A DNA stretch of 64,000 bases from Nitrospirota bacterium (GTDB lineage Bacteria > Nitrospirota > Nitrospiria > Nitrospirales > Nitrospiraceae). Shown here one piece after another: positions 22,224-27,007 of this stretch. The DNA lies in contig JBFMAX010000004.1 of assembly GCA_040755395.1 (NCBI GenBank), positions 62,001 through 126,000 of the forward strand, given 5' to 3'. A program made the position numbers and the translations under genes. The notes under the pieces are model-generated. The model was not told where the DNA came from, did no database searches, and saw nothing but the letters and a program-made list of their open reading frames with translations. Positions within the stretch are counted from its first letter, which is position 1. Every line of letters begins with the position of its first letter.

Positions 22224-23255
22224 ATGAGTCAATCGAACACATCTGGTCCGGTGATTCTGGTGACCGGGGTGGCCGGCTTCATCGGCTACCACGTCGCCCG
22301 GCGGCTGCTCGAGCGAGGCGACCGGGTGCTGGGGCTGGACAATGTCAACCCGTACTACGACGTCCGGCTGAAAGAAGCGCGCTTGGCCCATTTGTCGCCG
22401 TTCGAGCGTTTCGGGTTCGTGAAACGGGACCTGGCGGATCGCAACGCCATGCGGGCGCTTTTCACGGAGCATCCGATCCGCCGCGTCGTACACCTGGCGG
22501 CCCAGGCGGGCGTCCGCTACTCCCTCGTCAACCCGCACGCCTACACCGACAGCAACATCGAAGGATTCATGAACATCCTGGAGGGGTGCCGGCACGCGCG
22601 GGTGGAGCATCTGGTGTACGCCTCCTCCAGTTCGGTGTACGGCGGCAACATGCATATGCCTTTCTCTGTCCACGACAATGTGGACCATCCGGTGTCGCTC
22701 TACGCCGCGAGCAAGAAGGCCAACGAGCTGATGGCCCATTGCTACGCCCACCTGTACAAGATTCCCTGCACGGGCTTGCGGTTCTTCACCGTGTACGGGC
22801 CGTGGGGCAGGCCGGACATGGCGCTCTTCATCTTCACCAAGGCGATCCTGGAAGGCCGGCCGATCGAGGTCTTCAACTACGGCCGGATGCAGCGCGACTT
22901 CACCTACATCGACGACATCGTCGAGGGGGTGGTCCGGGCCCTCGATCGCCCGGCGCAGCCCGATCCTGCCTGGTCCGGCGAGCGGCCGGACCCCGGTACC
23001 AGCTCCGCGCCCTATCGCCTCTACAACATCGGGAACCACCAGCCGGTCGATCTGCTTCGCTTCATCGAGGTGCTCGAGCAGGCGCTCGGCAAAAAGGCCG
23101 AGAAGAAGCTCCTTCCCATGCAGCCCGGCGACGTGCCCGCCACCTACGCCGACATCGACGACCTCACGCGCGACGTCGGCTTCAAACCCGCCACGCCGAT
23201 CGAAGTCGGCATCCCGCGCTTCGTGCAGTGGTATCGCGAATTTTATAAGGTGTGA
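22224..23255 (+). CDS. NAD-dependent UDP-sugar epimerase (UDP-glucuronate 4-epimerase-like)
   Basis: A 343-residue extended short-chain dehydrogenase. [18 protein letters not shown] is the NAD motif, SSSSVYG the catalytic Ser/Thr region, and YAASKKANE carries the Tyr-x3-Lys pair near residue 165. [19 protein letters not shown] is the pattern of UDP-glucuronate/galacturonate 4-epimerases. It should make UDP-galacturonate or a related sugar for surface polysaccharide. It follows the sugar-oxidoreductase fusion after 43 bases. Exact substrate is not certain. Confidence 0.85.
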
Positions 23256-23286: not shown

Positions 23287-23585
23287 GCCGGGCTGTGCTG
23301 CTTCCGCTCGCACCCATTTGCACGAAGCCAAACTGCGCAACGGGTTCCCGTCCGTTGGGGTCCGCCGTAAGCCTCATCACCCGTTGCACTCGGCCCGTTG
23401 CAACAAAAAGCAACGGGCGCCCCGGCAACGGGTACCCGGCTCGGCTGCTCAACTTGTCCCGTCCGGAGCTTCGCTCGAACGGGACTTCGAACAGTGCTCG
23501 CCGCCCGCTTCCAGCGGGCCGCTTCAGCTCGGCAACGGCGAAGCGCCAACCGGCTCTGATGCCCGCTCCAGCAGTACAGCCCGGC
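23287..23585 (+). repeat. Long hairpin element L (left flank of foreign cassette)
   Basis: A ~299-base non-coding, strongly self-complementary element. Terminal arms GCCGGGCTGTGCTGCT (23287-23302) and AGCAGTACAGCCCGGC (23570-23585) pair fully if one G-U pair is allowed. Inside are further hairpins, such as GCCCGTTGC / GCAACGGGC at 23393-23419 and a GTCCCGT / ACGGGAC hairpin at about 23457-23484. The loop next to the stem has TCCGCTC on the left and CTGATGCCCGCTCC on the right. Both are also found in the element at 25797-26110 in opposite orientation. The 407-base gap after the epimerase gene holds only this element and ~75 bases of cassette sequence. Confidence 0.7.
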
Positions 23586-23776
23586 TGAATAAAGGAGGCC
23601 GACTCCGTAAGTCACTTTCGAGATGGTGCCCCCTTTGTTCTTTGCATGTATGACTGCAAGACTTGACCCTCCATGCTTATGAAACGTTTGGGTATATTTC
23701 TGATAGGCAGTACGTTAGACTTAACAAAGTTATTTACAAGCAGCGTAGTCCACCTCGGGCAGTGGGGCATTTGTCA

Positions 23777-24448
23777 ATGTTAAAGCTGGAAGTGAGCAAG
23801 GCAGACCTTGGATTTGAAGCTGGATATTCTCAACCGGAGTTCGGCCTCTTTCGGGAGGGTGCTTCTCTCCTACACTATGTGTTCAAGCGTCTGGAACCTT
23901 ATGGGCTGCGGCTAGCTGACCTGAGAATTGAGCGTAGCAGCGCAAGCGTGGCCGAACACCATGTTCTTTGCTACCTGTTCAACTACTGGATGGTGATCAG
24001 AATCCGGGTTGATCGCATCGAGGTATTGTGCTCCGAGTTGCCACGGGATTATGTGGGTAAGACGAAGGGAGCACTTGTGGACATTTGCGGGGCCGTCAAG
24101 GACCACAGCCCTGGCCTGGGCTTCCGGACCTTTGCTGTAAGCGTGGGACTACACGCGAAGCTTGAGGGTCAACCGGTAAGGAGTTATTTAAGTCGATTTG
24201 TCATTAAGCCCCCGCAGAACCTTGGTGAGCCTACTGGGAATGGAGCTGTTTTTTATTTCGGCCCCGACAGGGATCGACTTTTGTCTTCTATCACAGCCGA
24301 TCTCTCGGCCATGGTGCCAGACGCCATGTATCTGCGGATCTACAGTGTATGGGACGCGCAGAAGGTGAAACCTGATTCCTTGCCAGCAATCGCAGAAGCA
24401 TTTGTCGCTCAAGCCCTGGAAACGCTGGGGTTACAATTACCGGTCTAA
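23777..24448 (+). CDS. Hypothetical protein of the cassette (223-261 aa)
   Basis: An unrecognised protein. The first ATG in frame is 23777 (223 residues); the frame is open back to a TTG at 23663 (261 residues), and neither has a clear ribosome-binding site. Composition is mixed alpha/beta with a C-terminal segment FYFGPDRDRLLSSITADLSAM, without membrane spans or signal peptide. Base composition is visibly lower in GC (roughly 50%) than neighbours, suggesting transfer. It is followed in the same frame, after a single TAA, by the next cassette ORF. Confidence 0.55.
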   Translation: MLKLEVSKADLGFEAGYSQPEFGLFREGASLLHYVFKRLEPYGLRLADLRIERSSASVAEHHVLCYLFNYWMVIRIRVDRIEVLCSELPRDYVGKTKGALVDICGAVKDHSPGLGFRTFAVSVGLHAKLEGQPVRSYLSRFVIKPPQNLGEPTGNGAVFYFGPDRDRLLSSITADLSAMVPDAMYLRIYSVWDAQKVKPDSLPAIAEAFVAQALETLGLQLPV

Positions 24449-24610
24449 ACAATATTTGCCACGACGCTCAATCCTTCATTTCGGCAATCTCCGATCCAAA
24501 GTCTGGCTAAGGTCCAAGCCGCATCTCTGTCAAGGCCTTTCTCTGCGCGGTACGGACTCCTGGCCAAGTCGCAGTTCGAATACCAGATTGAGCATGAACC
24601 GACTCTCCCT

Positions 24611-25150
24611 TTGATCGAGGCTTGGAGTAGACTCACATCCCCGCTTGGTGGGGTGACTTCCGTTGACTTGGCGTTTTTCGACGAATCCCTTACTAAGTCT
24701 CTGGCTCTCGAAAAGCTCATGTCGCCATCGAGCCTTCGTGAGCAATCTTCCCTCGTTTCGCGAGCCTCAACAACTATAGAGGAATCAGCGTTTCCTGAGC
24801 CTGATGTTCTTCCCTTTCTAAGCGCCATTCGTAGGTCCATTGAGACCGAGCAGTTGTCACCCGCACGCTCCCTTCTTGATGCGGCCCCCATTCGCATTCT
24901 CAGTGATCCAGTCGTGACACAGCTTCGTGCTGTCCTCGCTCCGCCCGTCGTTACGCGGGTCCAAAGGCGCGACATTGACCGGAGGACGGAATACGAATGG
25001 CTACGCACAGAGGGCTCGAAATACCGCGGGCGATGGGTGGCGCTGAATGGCGACCATCTGGTGGCAACGGCCGAGACACTCCGTGAGTTACGCCAGCAAT
25101 TGCTGGCTATGCGTCTGGCACAGCCACCACTCATCCATCGTGTTGAGTGA
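24611..25150 (+). CDS. DUF5678-like small protein of the cassette
   Basis: A 179-residue ORF from a TTG. The C-terminal ~45 residues (RTEYEWLRTEGSKYRGRWVALNGDHLVATAETLREL) resemble DUF5678, a short domain of unknown function. The rest is Ser/Leu-rich and unrecognised. No ATG exists in frame; the frame is open from the TAA at 24446-24448, so the true start may lie anywhere between 24449 and 24611, including a non-standard codon, or the gene may be damaged. A retropepsin-like gene follows 12 bases later. Confidence 0.5.
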   Translation: MIEAWSRLTSPLGGVTSVDLAFFDESLTKSLALEKLMSPSSLREQSSLVSRASTTIEESAFPEPDVLPFLSAIRRSIETEQLSPARSLLDAAPIRILSDPVVTQLRAVLAPPVVTRVQRRDIDRRTEYEWLRTEGSKYRGRWVALNGDHLVATAETLRELRQQLLAMRLAQPPLIHRVE

Positions 25151-25162
25151 CCGAACGTTTCG

Positions 25163-25606
25163 ATGCTTGTCAGACGCGACGGCACTCAATTTTCAATTGG
25201 GCGATCCCGGTTTCGAGACCAACCGCAGGATACAAGTCGACCGACCGCCAAGATTTTTGTCAAGATCGTGCCAGGATCGCTAGGAATGCCGATCTTGGCT
25301 CAGCTTGATACGGGTTCGGCATGGTCGATCCTTAACCAGGAAGTGGGAGGGGAACTCTCTCTGCTGAATGGCGGAGGGGAGTCAGCACAAATGTCCACTC
25401 GAATGGGACCAGTGAGAGGTCGTCTTGAGAGGACCCAAATCGAACTTGTTGCGGACGAAGGAGATGGGTTGAGTATCGATGCGACTGTGTTCGTTTCACC
25501 GGATTGGTCAGGCGATAATTTCATTGGATACTCCGGCTTCTTAGAGCGAATTCGCTTCGGCGTGGACCCAAGTGACAATTACTTCTACTTCGGGCCCATC
25601 TCATAA
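25163..25606 (+). CDS. Retropepsin-like aspartic protease domain protein
   Basis: A 147-residue protein whose motif LAQLDTGSAWSIL near residue 50 is the DTGS active-site pattern of retroviral-type aspartic proteases, with the hydrophobic lead-in they require. The downstream region SIDATVFVSPDWSGDNFIGYSGFLERIRFGVDP fits the second half of the fold, including the late glycine-containing strand. Like other bacterial members it should act as a homodimer. It follows the DUF5678-like gene by 12 bases. Substrate unknown; a partner in the cassette is plausible but unproven. Confidence 0.7.
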   Translation: MLVRRDGTQFSIGRSRFRDQPQDTSRPTAKIFVKIVPGSLGMPILAQLDTGSAWSILNQEVGGELSLLNGGGESAQMSTRMGPVRGRLERTQIELVADEGDGLSIDATVFVSPDWSGDNFIGYSGFLERIRFGVDPSDNYFYFGPIS

Positions 25607-25796
25607 TCCCATCAGCAATCTATCTGCGTGGGTAAAACAGTCTCAGGTCTTATGATGCGACCGCGATATAATAAGTGCGCTCGCTGCTCTATCCGGAATG
25701 CGAAAATGGCCAACTCTTTCCGGAGAACAAGAGGAGACTACTTTTGAAGTGTTTCGGGGTCAACTGTTTGGCAGGTGAATTCCCACGCTCGCCACA

Positions 25797-26110
25797 GGCC
25801 GGGCTCATTGCTGGAGCGGGCATCAGGGCCGTTTGGTGCTCCAACTCTTTTACCCGAGGGCGGGCTGGAGTTCTTGCCGCATATCGCCGAAGGGGGCGGG
25901 ACACAACTTGCCGCGGCGCGCGGCCCTTGCTCATGAGACGCAAGGGCGCAGCCTGTACTGTTTGAGGCCGCTGCGGCCGAGTTTACAGGATGCGAGCGGG
26001 CAAGGCTTAGTTGGGTGCCCCCGGAGGTGTCTTCAGCGGCAGAACTCCAGCCCGCCCTCGTCTCCCCTCCCAAACGGCCCCGGCCTTGAGCGGAAGCAAT
26101 GGGCCCGGCC
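25797..26110 (-). repeat. Long hairpin element R (right flank of foreign cassette)
   Basis: A ~314-base non-coding near-palindrome. Terminal arms GGCCGGGCTCATTGCT (25797-25812) and AGCAATGGGCCCGGCC (26095-26110) pair fully with one G-U. A second perfect stem, GGGCCGTTTGG (25826-25836) with CCAAACGGCCC (26070-26080), and a third of ~24 bp (25856-25880 with 26037-26060, one bulged base) follow. Its ends match those of element L at the stem-flanking loop, but inverted. The 518-base gap after the retropepsin gene holds ~190 bases of cassette tail without a recognised gene and then this element. Confidence 0.7.
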
Positions 26111-26124
26111 ATCTCCGTTCTTCG

Positions 26125-26844
26125 TCAGCCGAGCGGAGCGCTTCCTCTGTGCTGGGCCAGTCGGTGCTCGAGTTTATCCGGCGTGATTCCTTCCAGGCTC
26201 GGCAGGACCAGGTGCGCCTCCGTCAACTGGTCGGCCGGGTAGGTGGTGGCGAGGGCGACGACCTTCATGCCGGCGGTCAGTGCCGCGCGGATGCCGGCGC
26301 GGGAATCTTCGAGGACCAGGCATTCCTCTGCCCTGATCAGCGGCGGCTGTGGCGCTAGCCCGTTCAACCGCTTCAAGGTCAGTTCATAGATCTCCGGGTC
26401 CGGCTTGCCGGTCGTCGTGTCTTCGGCCGAGACAATCACCGGGAAATCCCGCTCGATCGGCGTGTCGTGCAGCGCGTAGAGGATCTGCTCGCGCCGTCCG
26501 CCGGAGGCGATGGCCAGCCGACAGGTTTGGGCGGCCGACTTCACGAACTCCACGACGCCGGGAAACAGCTCCGGCTTGTGGGTCGCGGTATAGTCTCGAA
26601 AGAGGACGGCCTTCCGTTCCATGATCGACCGCAACCTGGCCAGGTCGCAGGAGCCAGTCGCCGCCGTCAGCAACGCCGTCGCGCAGTTCCGTTCGTCCAT
26701 CCCGAGGTAGGGACCATAATAGTCGTCCTTGGTCAGCGAGAGTCCGTGCTCGCTCAGCGCCTGCTGGAAGGTAAGGAGATGGGGCGTCTCGTCGTCGGCG
26801 ATGACGCCGTTGAAGTCGAAGATGATCGCTCTGATCCTGGCCAT
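26125..26844 (-). CDS. HAD-superfamily phosphatase (beta-PGM-like)
   Basis: A 239-residue haloacid-dehalogenase-type hydrolase with a helical cap. The first motif reads IIFDFNGVIADDE, so the usual second Asp of DxD is Asn, a known minor variant that may affect activity. Later motifs ASGGRREQI (Thr/Ser motif), and EDSRAGIRAALTAGM (acid motif) are intact. The start MARIRAIIFDFNG is chosen because upstream codons lie outside the family. It resembles phosphatases or beta-phosphoglucomutases acting on sugar phosphates. It abuts hairpin element R. Confidence 0.83.
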   Translation of the reverse strand: MARIRAIIFDFNGVIADDETPHLLTFQQALSEHGLSLTKDDYYGPYLGMDERNCATALLTAATGSCDLARLRSIMERKAVLFRDYTATHKPELFPGVVEFVKSAAQTCRLAIASGGRREQILYALHDTPIERDFPVIVSAEDTTTGKPDPEIYELTLKRLNGLAPQPPLIRAEECLVLEDSRAGIRAALTAGMKVVALATTYPADQLTEAHLVLPSLEGITPDKLEHRLAQHRGSAPLG

Positions 26845-27007
26845 GGCGCGCCTCACTCTACCCGACGAGAGGCTGCGCAACAAGACACACTCGCTTGCCC
26901 GCCCGCGCGCCCTCCTGTATGCTCCGGCCTGTTCCTGGTTTTCCAATGAAAAACCGATTTGATGCTGGCGCTGGCGGCAGGACGCCGCTGACCGAAATAA
27001 GACTCAT

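Follow-up and report, generated by a model that had tools for sequence, protein, structure and literature searches.

Gene-end palindromes of a Nitrospiraceae repeat family flank a retropepsin-like operon between two convergent genes

Dispersed palindromes of the REP and BIME type, many of which lie just after stop codons, are the natural starting point for a description of the elements considered here. The REP hairpin is short (20-40 nt), and REPs located near stop codons are reported to lower translation in E. coli (PMC12306157). Other known systems share further traits with the present locus, namely MITEs, which are non-coding elements with terminal inverted repeats and swappable or nested interiors; integron attC cassettes, in which a foldable site stands behind a gene in fixed orientation; and composite transposons, the end elements of which are expected to be near-identical. 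As to the origin of such stems, template switching in replication both creates and repairs them, and this process alone can yield covariation of the kind described below (PMC8794818).

The window analysed here is a 64,000-nt stretch from a Nitrospirota bacterium of the family Nitrospiraceae (assembly GCA_040755395.1, contig JBFMAX010000004.1, positions 62,001 to 126,000). An earlier note on this DNA had described two related, oppositely oriented hairpin elements, referred to as L and R, around a three-gene cassette of lower GC content (Table 1), and the analysis confirmed a pair of related, inverted and strongly foldable elements bracketing a lower-GC operon. The motif CTGATGCCCGCTCCAGCA is found at 23556-23573 (+) and 25809-25826 (-), the sole two matches in the window even allowing three mismatches, compared with 0.16 expected by chance and two matches reached in 3 of 100 shuffles, and TGCTTCCGCTC occurs exactly in the window only at 23299-23309 (+) and 26088-26098 (-). 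In L, the outer arms (23287-23302 with 23570-23585) pair at 94%, the 3′ ends of L and R form a 32-nt inverted repeat (91%), and the fold z-scores against shuffles are -5.1 and -6.7 for L and R, respectively. GC content is 0.50-0.58 between the elements versus 0.62-0.65 outside. The likeness of L and R is confined to their ends. Their interiors are unrelated, with that of R matching further family B copies by blastn (L029, 80% over 189 nt; also L028, L037, L011, and others), and L (0.76) and R (0.80) each have their nearest relative in some other copy of the repeat family E, to which both belong, and not in one another. L begins 32 nt after the stop codon of the epimerase gene, and R begins 15 nt after that of the HAD-type gene.

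Table 1. Coordinates of the features at the locus, numbered from the first nucleotide of the window.
Feature	Position	Strand	Description
Epimerase gene, host of L	22224..23255	+	NAD-dependent epimerase; Pfam Epimerase, E-value 9e-55
Element L	23287..23585	+	family E; insertion in an inner helix; sense to epimerase gene
ORF1	23777..24448	+	223 aa; two-lobed alpha/beta protein; no Pfam family
ORF2	24449..25150	+	up to 233 aa; C-terminal DUF5678 (PF18929, 24.5 bits, cut-off 23.2)
ORF3	25163..25606	+	147 aa; retropepsin-like aspartic protease; conserved D-T-G-[S/A]
Element R	25797..26110	-	family E ends around family B interior; sense to HAD gene
R interior	25871..26060	-	copy of repeat family B (blastn)
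HAD-type hydrolase gene, host of R	26125..26946	-	Pfam HAD_2, E-value 1.9e-25; converges on epimerase gene

Copies of E were reached first via the 3′ motif, in the window genome and in relatives, and nine full copies were aligned for the covariance model R1 (208 positions, 65 pairs). The element measures about 200 nt with 14 helices and 65 pairs, which sets it apart from the short hairpins of the REP/RAYT system, and its conserved ends read GCTTCCGCTC and GATGCCCGCTCCAGCA. L matches R1 with 85.4 bits (E-value 1.5e-20, core 23330-23576) and R with 35.5 bits (E-value 1.3e-7). Searching relatives with a covariance model, as the earlier note had proposed, recovered E in 96 of 172 Nitrospiraceae genomes, representing 20 of 22 genera. 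Elsewhere in the phylum it is nearly absent: a phylum scan returned 43 of 296 genomes with E, all but one in Nitrospiraceae. The genomes are largely MAGs, and at most 14 candidates were scored in each; all 14 scored in the window genome match R1, giving at least 14 copies. Density is low, with two matches in 886 kb of arbitrarily chosen sequence. Rfam 15 gave no gathering match in the window and no relevant sub-threshold match to the E copies, and the family appears to be previously uncatalogued. E shares with MITEs the terminal inverted repeats, the non-coding nature, and the swappable or nested interiors (families B and C), but differs in that neither a target duplication nor a matching transposase was found for it and in that its positions are conserved across genera. 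A link to RAYT was considered and rejected, as the 1.5-kb flanks of the four Y1_Tnp matches in the window genome show no similarity to A, B, C, L, or R.

Placement of E relative to genes is far from random. In 37 of 79 copies, an ORF of 150 aa or longer on the same strand ends between -12 and +40 nt relative to the 5′ end of E, versus 1 of 79 at the mirrored position and 3.0% of random positions; these counts, like those of pairing, are not independent events because the copies are related. The position behind a same-strand stop codon is common to E and the REP/BIME palindromes, from which E differs by its sense orientation and its vertical inheritance at core genes. From reading of the translations, the host genes presumably include ahcY, sucC, purC, purQ, tenA, ntrC, trpS, gltX, and ftsK, all core genes. 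At several of these the nearest relative of an element is the one at the same gene in another genome (ahcY 0.78, tenA 0.75-0.96, ntrC 0.76, purQ 0.79, one purC pair 0.74, and likewise a flavodoxin-like gene), and these positions are thus inherited. The remaining 42 of the 79 lack a clear host ORF (150 aa or more) on the same strand, and some 16 copies are found ahead of a divergent gene at a distance of 58-258 nt, one of them further away, a placement that a pure tail model leaves unexplained. TTTT, as expected for an intrinsic terminator, follows within 15 nt in just 2 of 94 copies, and no general shared leader was found upstream of E. The suggestion that such elements might always flank cargo holds for some close pairs around accessory genes and fails for most copies, which stand alone behind core genes. 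A large palindrome family with vertical inheritance at the ends of core genes in Nitrospira relatives has apparently gone undescribed.

All three ORFs of the operon are supported as real genes by homology, and PADLOC and NCBIfam provide no name for any of them. The earlier note had recognised a function in the retropepsin-like product only. ORF2 carries DUF5678, a domain named in no paper found in the literature searched. ORF1 is predicted with good confidence by AlphaFold (pLDDT 89.9), and in a structure search the kinase, TBP, and AdoMetDC folds scored middling, with no clear family emerging; the predicted structure of ORF2 is poor. The ORF2 frame directly follows the ORF1 TAA in frame and contains no ATG, GTG, or TTG before the TTG at 24611 (window 24446-24611). 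Its homologues align upstream of 24611; the gene may use a non-standard start (e.g., ATA 24452) or may be decaying. In ORF3 the DTG is invariant among six homologues (alignment A4), and weak profile matches were obtained to the Ddi1 retropepsin domain (E-value 0.025) and gag-asp_proteas (E-value 0.07). ORF3 resembles other bacterial retropepsin-like proteases in its D-T-G-[S/A] motif and its weak profile likeness to the Ddi1 domain, and differs from them in being paired with a DUF5678 protein and, in close relatives, usually with ORF1. One could guess at regulated proteolysis in an accessory module as the function of the operon.

Variable presence of the cassette, about which the earlier note had asked, is evident from the occurrence of ORF3 in 6 of 172 Nitrospiraceae genomes, always behind ORF1 and ORF2, with ORF1 homologues preceding ORF2-ORF3 in the five genomes other than that of the window. 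A scan of 84,980 species located 40 ORF3 loci in other species, including Acidobacteria, Cyanobacteria, Rokubacteria, and Proteobacteria, and no ORF3 relative lies among IMG/VR viral contigs. ORF2 adjoins ORF3 at nearly all 40 loci, and ORF1 is upstream at 10. No convincing E was seen at 37 or more operon loci outside Nitrospiraceae, where a single weak match (E-value 0.005) was returned. Among the five other Nitrospiraceae loci, three have no E at all and two have a single E, which in one case ends the adjacent uracil-DNA-glycosylase-like gene and in the other lies 1.2 kb upstream; the post hoc chance of two in five being near an E is about 7e-5. Judged from these sequence comparisons, the operon evidently spreads horizontally across several phyla independently of E and normally without it.

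The epimerase gene is nearly universal in the family, with matches at E-value ≤1e-80 in 162 of 172 Nitrospiraceae genomes, and the HAD gene is syntenic beside it in relatives. None of 29 relatives checked has an E around the epimerase gene, and L, R, and the operon are absent from the site in all of them, making a joint arrival possible. In 26 of the 29, a small antisense gene follows the epimerase gene; it is missing from the window, and the window genome has therefore lost it and acquired L, the operon, and R. As to the empty sites for which the earlier note had suggested a search, no clean junction is available because the relatives carry a different gene there.

The explanation preferred here, to which a probability of roughly 0.6 is assigned, is that L and R are E-family tails of two convergent host genes, that a horizontally spread operon came between them in place of another gene, and that E is REP-like. 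It builds on the observed family with its placement, orientation, and covariation, on the independence of the operon, and on the replacement of the ancestral gene. E would be a Nitrospiraceae family of long imperfect palindromes set a few bases after stop codons in sense to the upstream gene, with L forming the epimerase gene's tail and R that of the HAD gene; the two would consequently face each other. The inverted bracket arises because these host genes converge, and a composite transposon is not needed. The operon, encoding ORF1, the DUF5678 protein, and the retropepsin-like protease, would have settled in another gene's place between the convergent genes, its entry being either illegitimate or by homologous recombination with E copies. 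E itself probably works like REP-type palindromes, either at the transcript 3′ end, where mRNA stability or translation of the last codons may be affected, or on DNA. By analogy, the translational effect of REPs (PMC12306157) would be its nearest functional parallel.

The strongest of the rival explanations, unlikely though it is, holds that E is a functional noncoding RNA, acting as a 3′UTR or standalone and selected for its RNA fold. The fixed sense orientation behind stop codons and the vertical inheritance at the same genes would suit such a role, as would covariation in nearly every helix and conserved unpaired stretches such as ACAGTCC. In 89 distinct rows, 61 of 65 pairs have changed on both sides, and paired cells amount to 89.9% versus 31-38% with partners slid, in an alignment (A3) that was fitted to R1. 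A structure selected as RNA should, however, tolerate G-U far more than A-C. The mismatches in E comprise 169 G-U versus 162 A-C among 5129 cells, or 73 versus 85 when counted against the nearest relative, and the two are about equal in most helices, unlike in tRNAs of the same loci, where a small control of 11 sequences gave 18 G-U and no A-C. Covariation could moreover be obtained from template switching alone (PMC8794818), and E has no Rfam family. The missing preference for G-U over A-C is read as arms kept complementary as DNA and points to their maintenance as DNA rather than RNA, although the transcript may also fold and act. Within the preferred reading of E as a REP-like gene tail, template switching at DNA replication would be what mainly keeps the arms complementary, as suggested by the absence of G-U preference among mismatches. 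E displays textbook covariation without the G-U signature of RNA; it thereby calls for caution in RNA discovery and provides a natural test case for template switching.

A composite mobile unit, which the earlier note had suggested, is rather improbable. Here, L and R would be the ends that moved the operon, or the operon would have been captured by recombination between E copies. The 29 relatives without L and R at the site, which have another gene or nothing there, agree with this idea, as do the E copies near two of the five remaining operon loci and the close pairs of E (starts within 4 kb): nine versus 1.25 expected (P about 7e-6), a count open to selection because the pairs were picked visually from coordinate lists. 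Four of them, not counting the window, surround what we take, by reading, to be accessory genes, namely HigBA (L281), RelE/Xre (L282), a Fic gene (L283), and a TIR protein gene (L288). The other close pairs, however, consist of tandem copies or have a core operon, or nothing, between them, and clustering at permissive, gene-poor sites could give the same pattern. Moreover, composite transposons should have near-identical ends, whereas L and R differ in their interiors and are not each other's nearest relatives, no transposase or recombinase was noted among the intervening ORFs, elsewhere the operon almost always lacks E, and their orientation is accounted for by the host genes. What remains of the original proposal is a possible joint arrival and the recurring pairs; E copies standing mostly alone, L and R not being closest to each other, and an operon found elsewhere without E speak against the rest. 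At L281:6858-8008, an IS3-type transposase pair adjoins three E copies and a HigBA module.

A more speculative and still less probable extension is that E copies serve as DNA docking sites at core-gene ends, through which accessory cargo enters by recombination between E copies, the folded DNA, kept by template switching, being recognised. If true, the cargo would comprise toxin-antitoxin, Fic, TIR, and retropepsin operons, and the process would amount to cassette-like exchange without a dedicated integrase. The locus in any case lets one ask whether gene-end palindromes attract horizontally acquired cargo. A reading of E as an integron-type recombination site, with the operon as a gene cassette, is already largely refuted and very improbable, for the sense orientation of a foldable site behind genes and the same-orientation E pairs around toxin-antitoxin cargo are outweighed by hosts that are vertically inherited core genes, by IntI above cut-off in 18 of 172 genomes, with no match in the window genome and no regular adjacency to E, and by E ends whose sequence lacks the RYYYAAC/GTTRRRY attC consensus. 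At one locus (L010, G026:C442:2402-2418), an E-like 3′ end lies behind a glutaredoxin gene about 340 nt from an IntI gene (G026:C442:2761-3564), an adjacency seen in no other genome.

Several further repeats were encountered alongside E. Family C, a nested hairpin repeat (L014:1125-1411 (-), query positions 114-181), is separate from E and more abundant, occurring alone in many Nitrospiraceae genomes and also inserted inside some E copies. Two elements of one MAG (G031, contigs C88 and C175; L016 and L017) have both flanks in common behind trpS and unrelated interiors, as if interiors were exchanged while the ends stay. At five loci (L133, L135, L140, L161, and L164), E forms a subfamily that is 0.88-0.96 identical between species of a single genus and includes tandem copies, which suggests a recent spread. 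Upstream of position 1501 in L011, a different hairpin repeat, with CGCGCAGT at its ends, is arrayed in series and apparently represents a further palindrome family.
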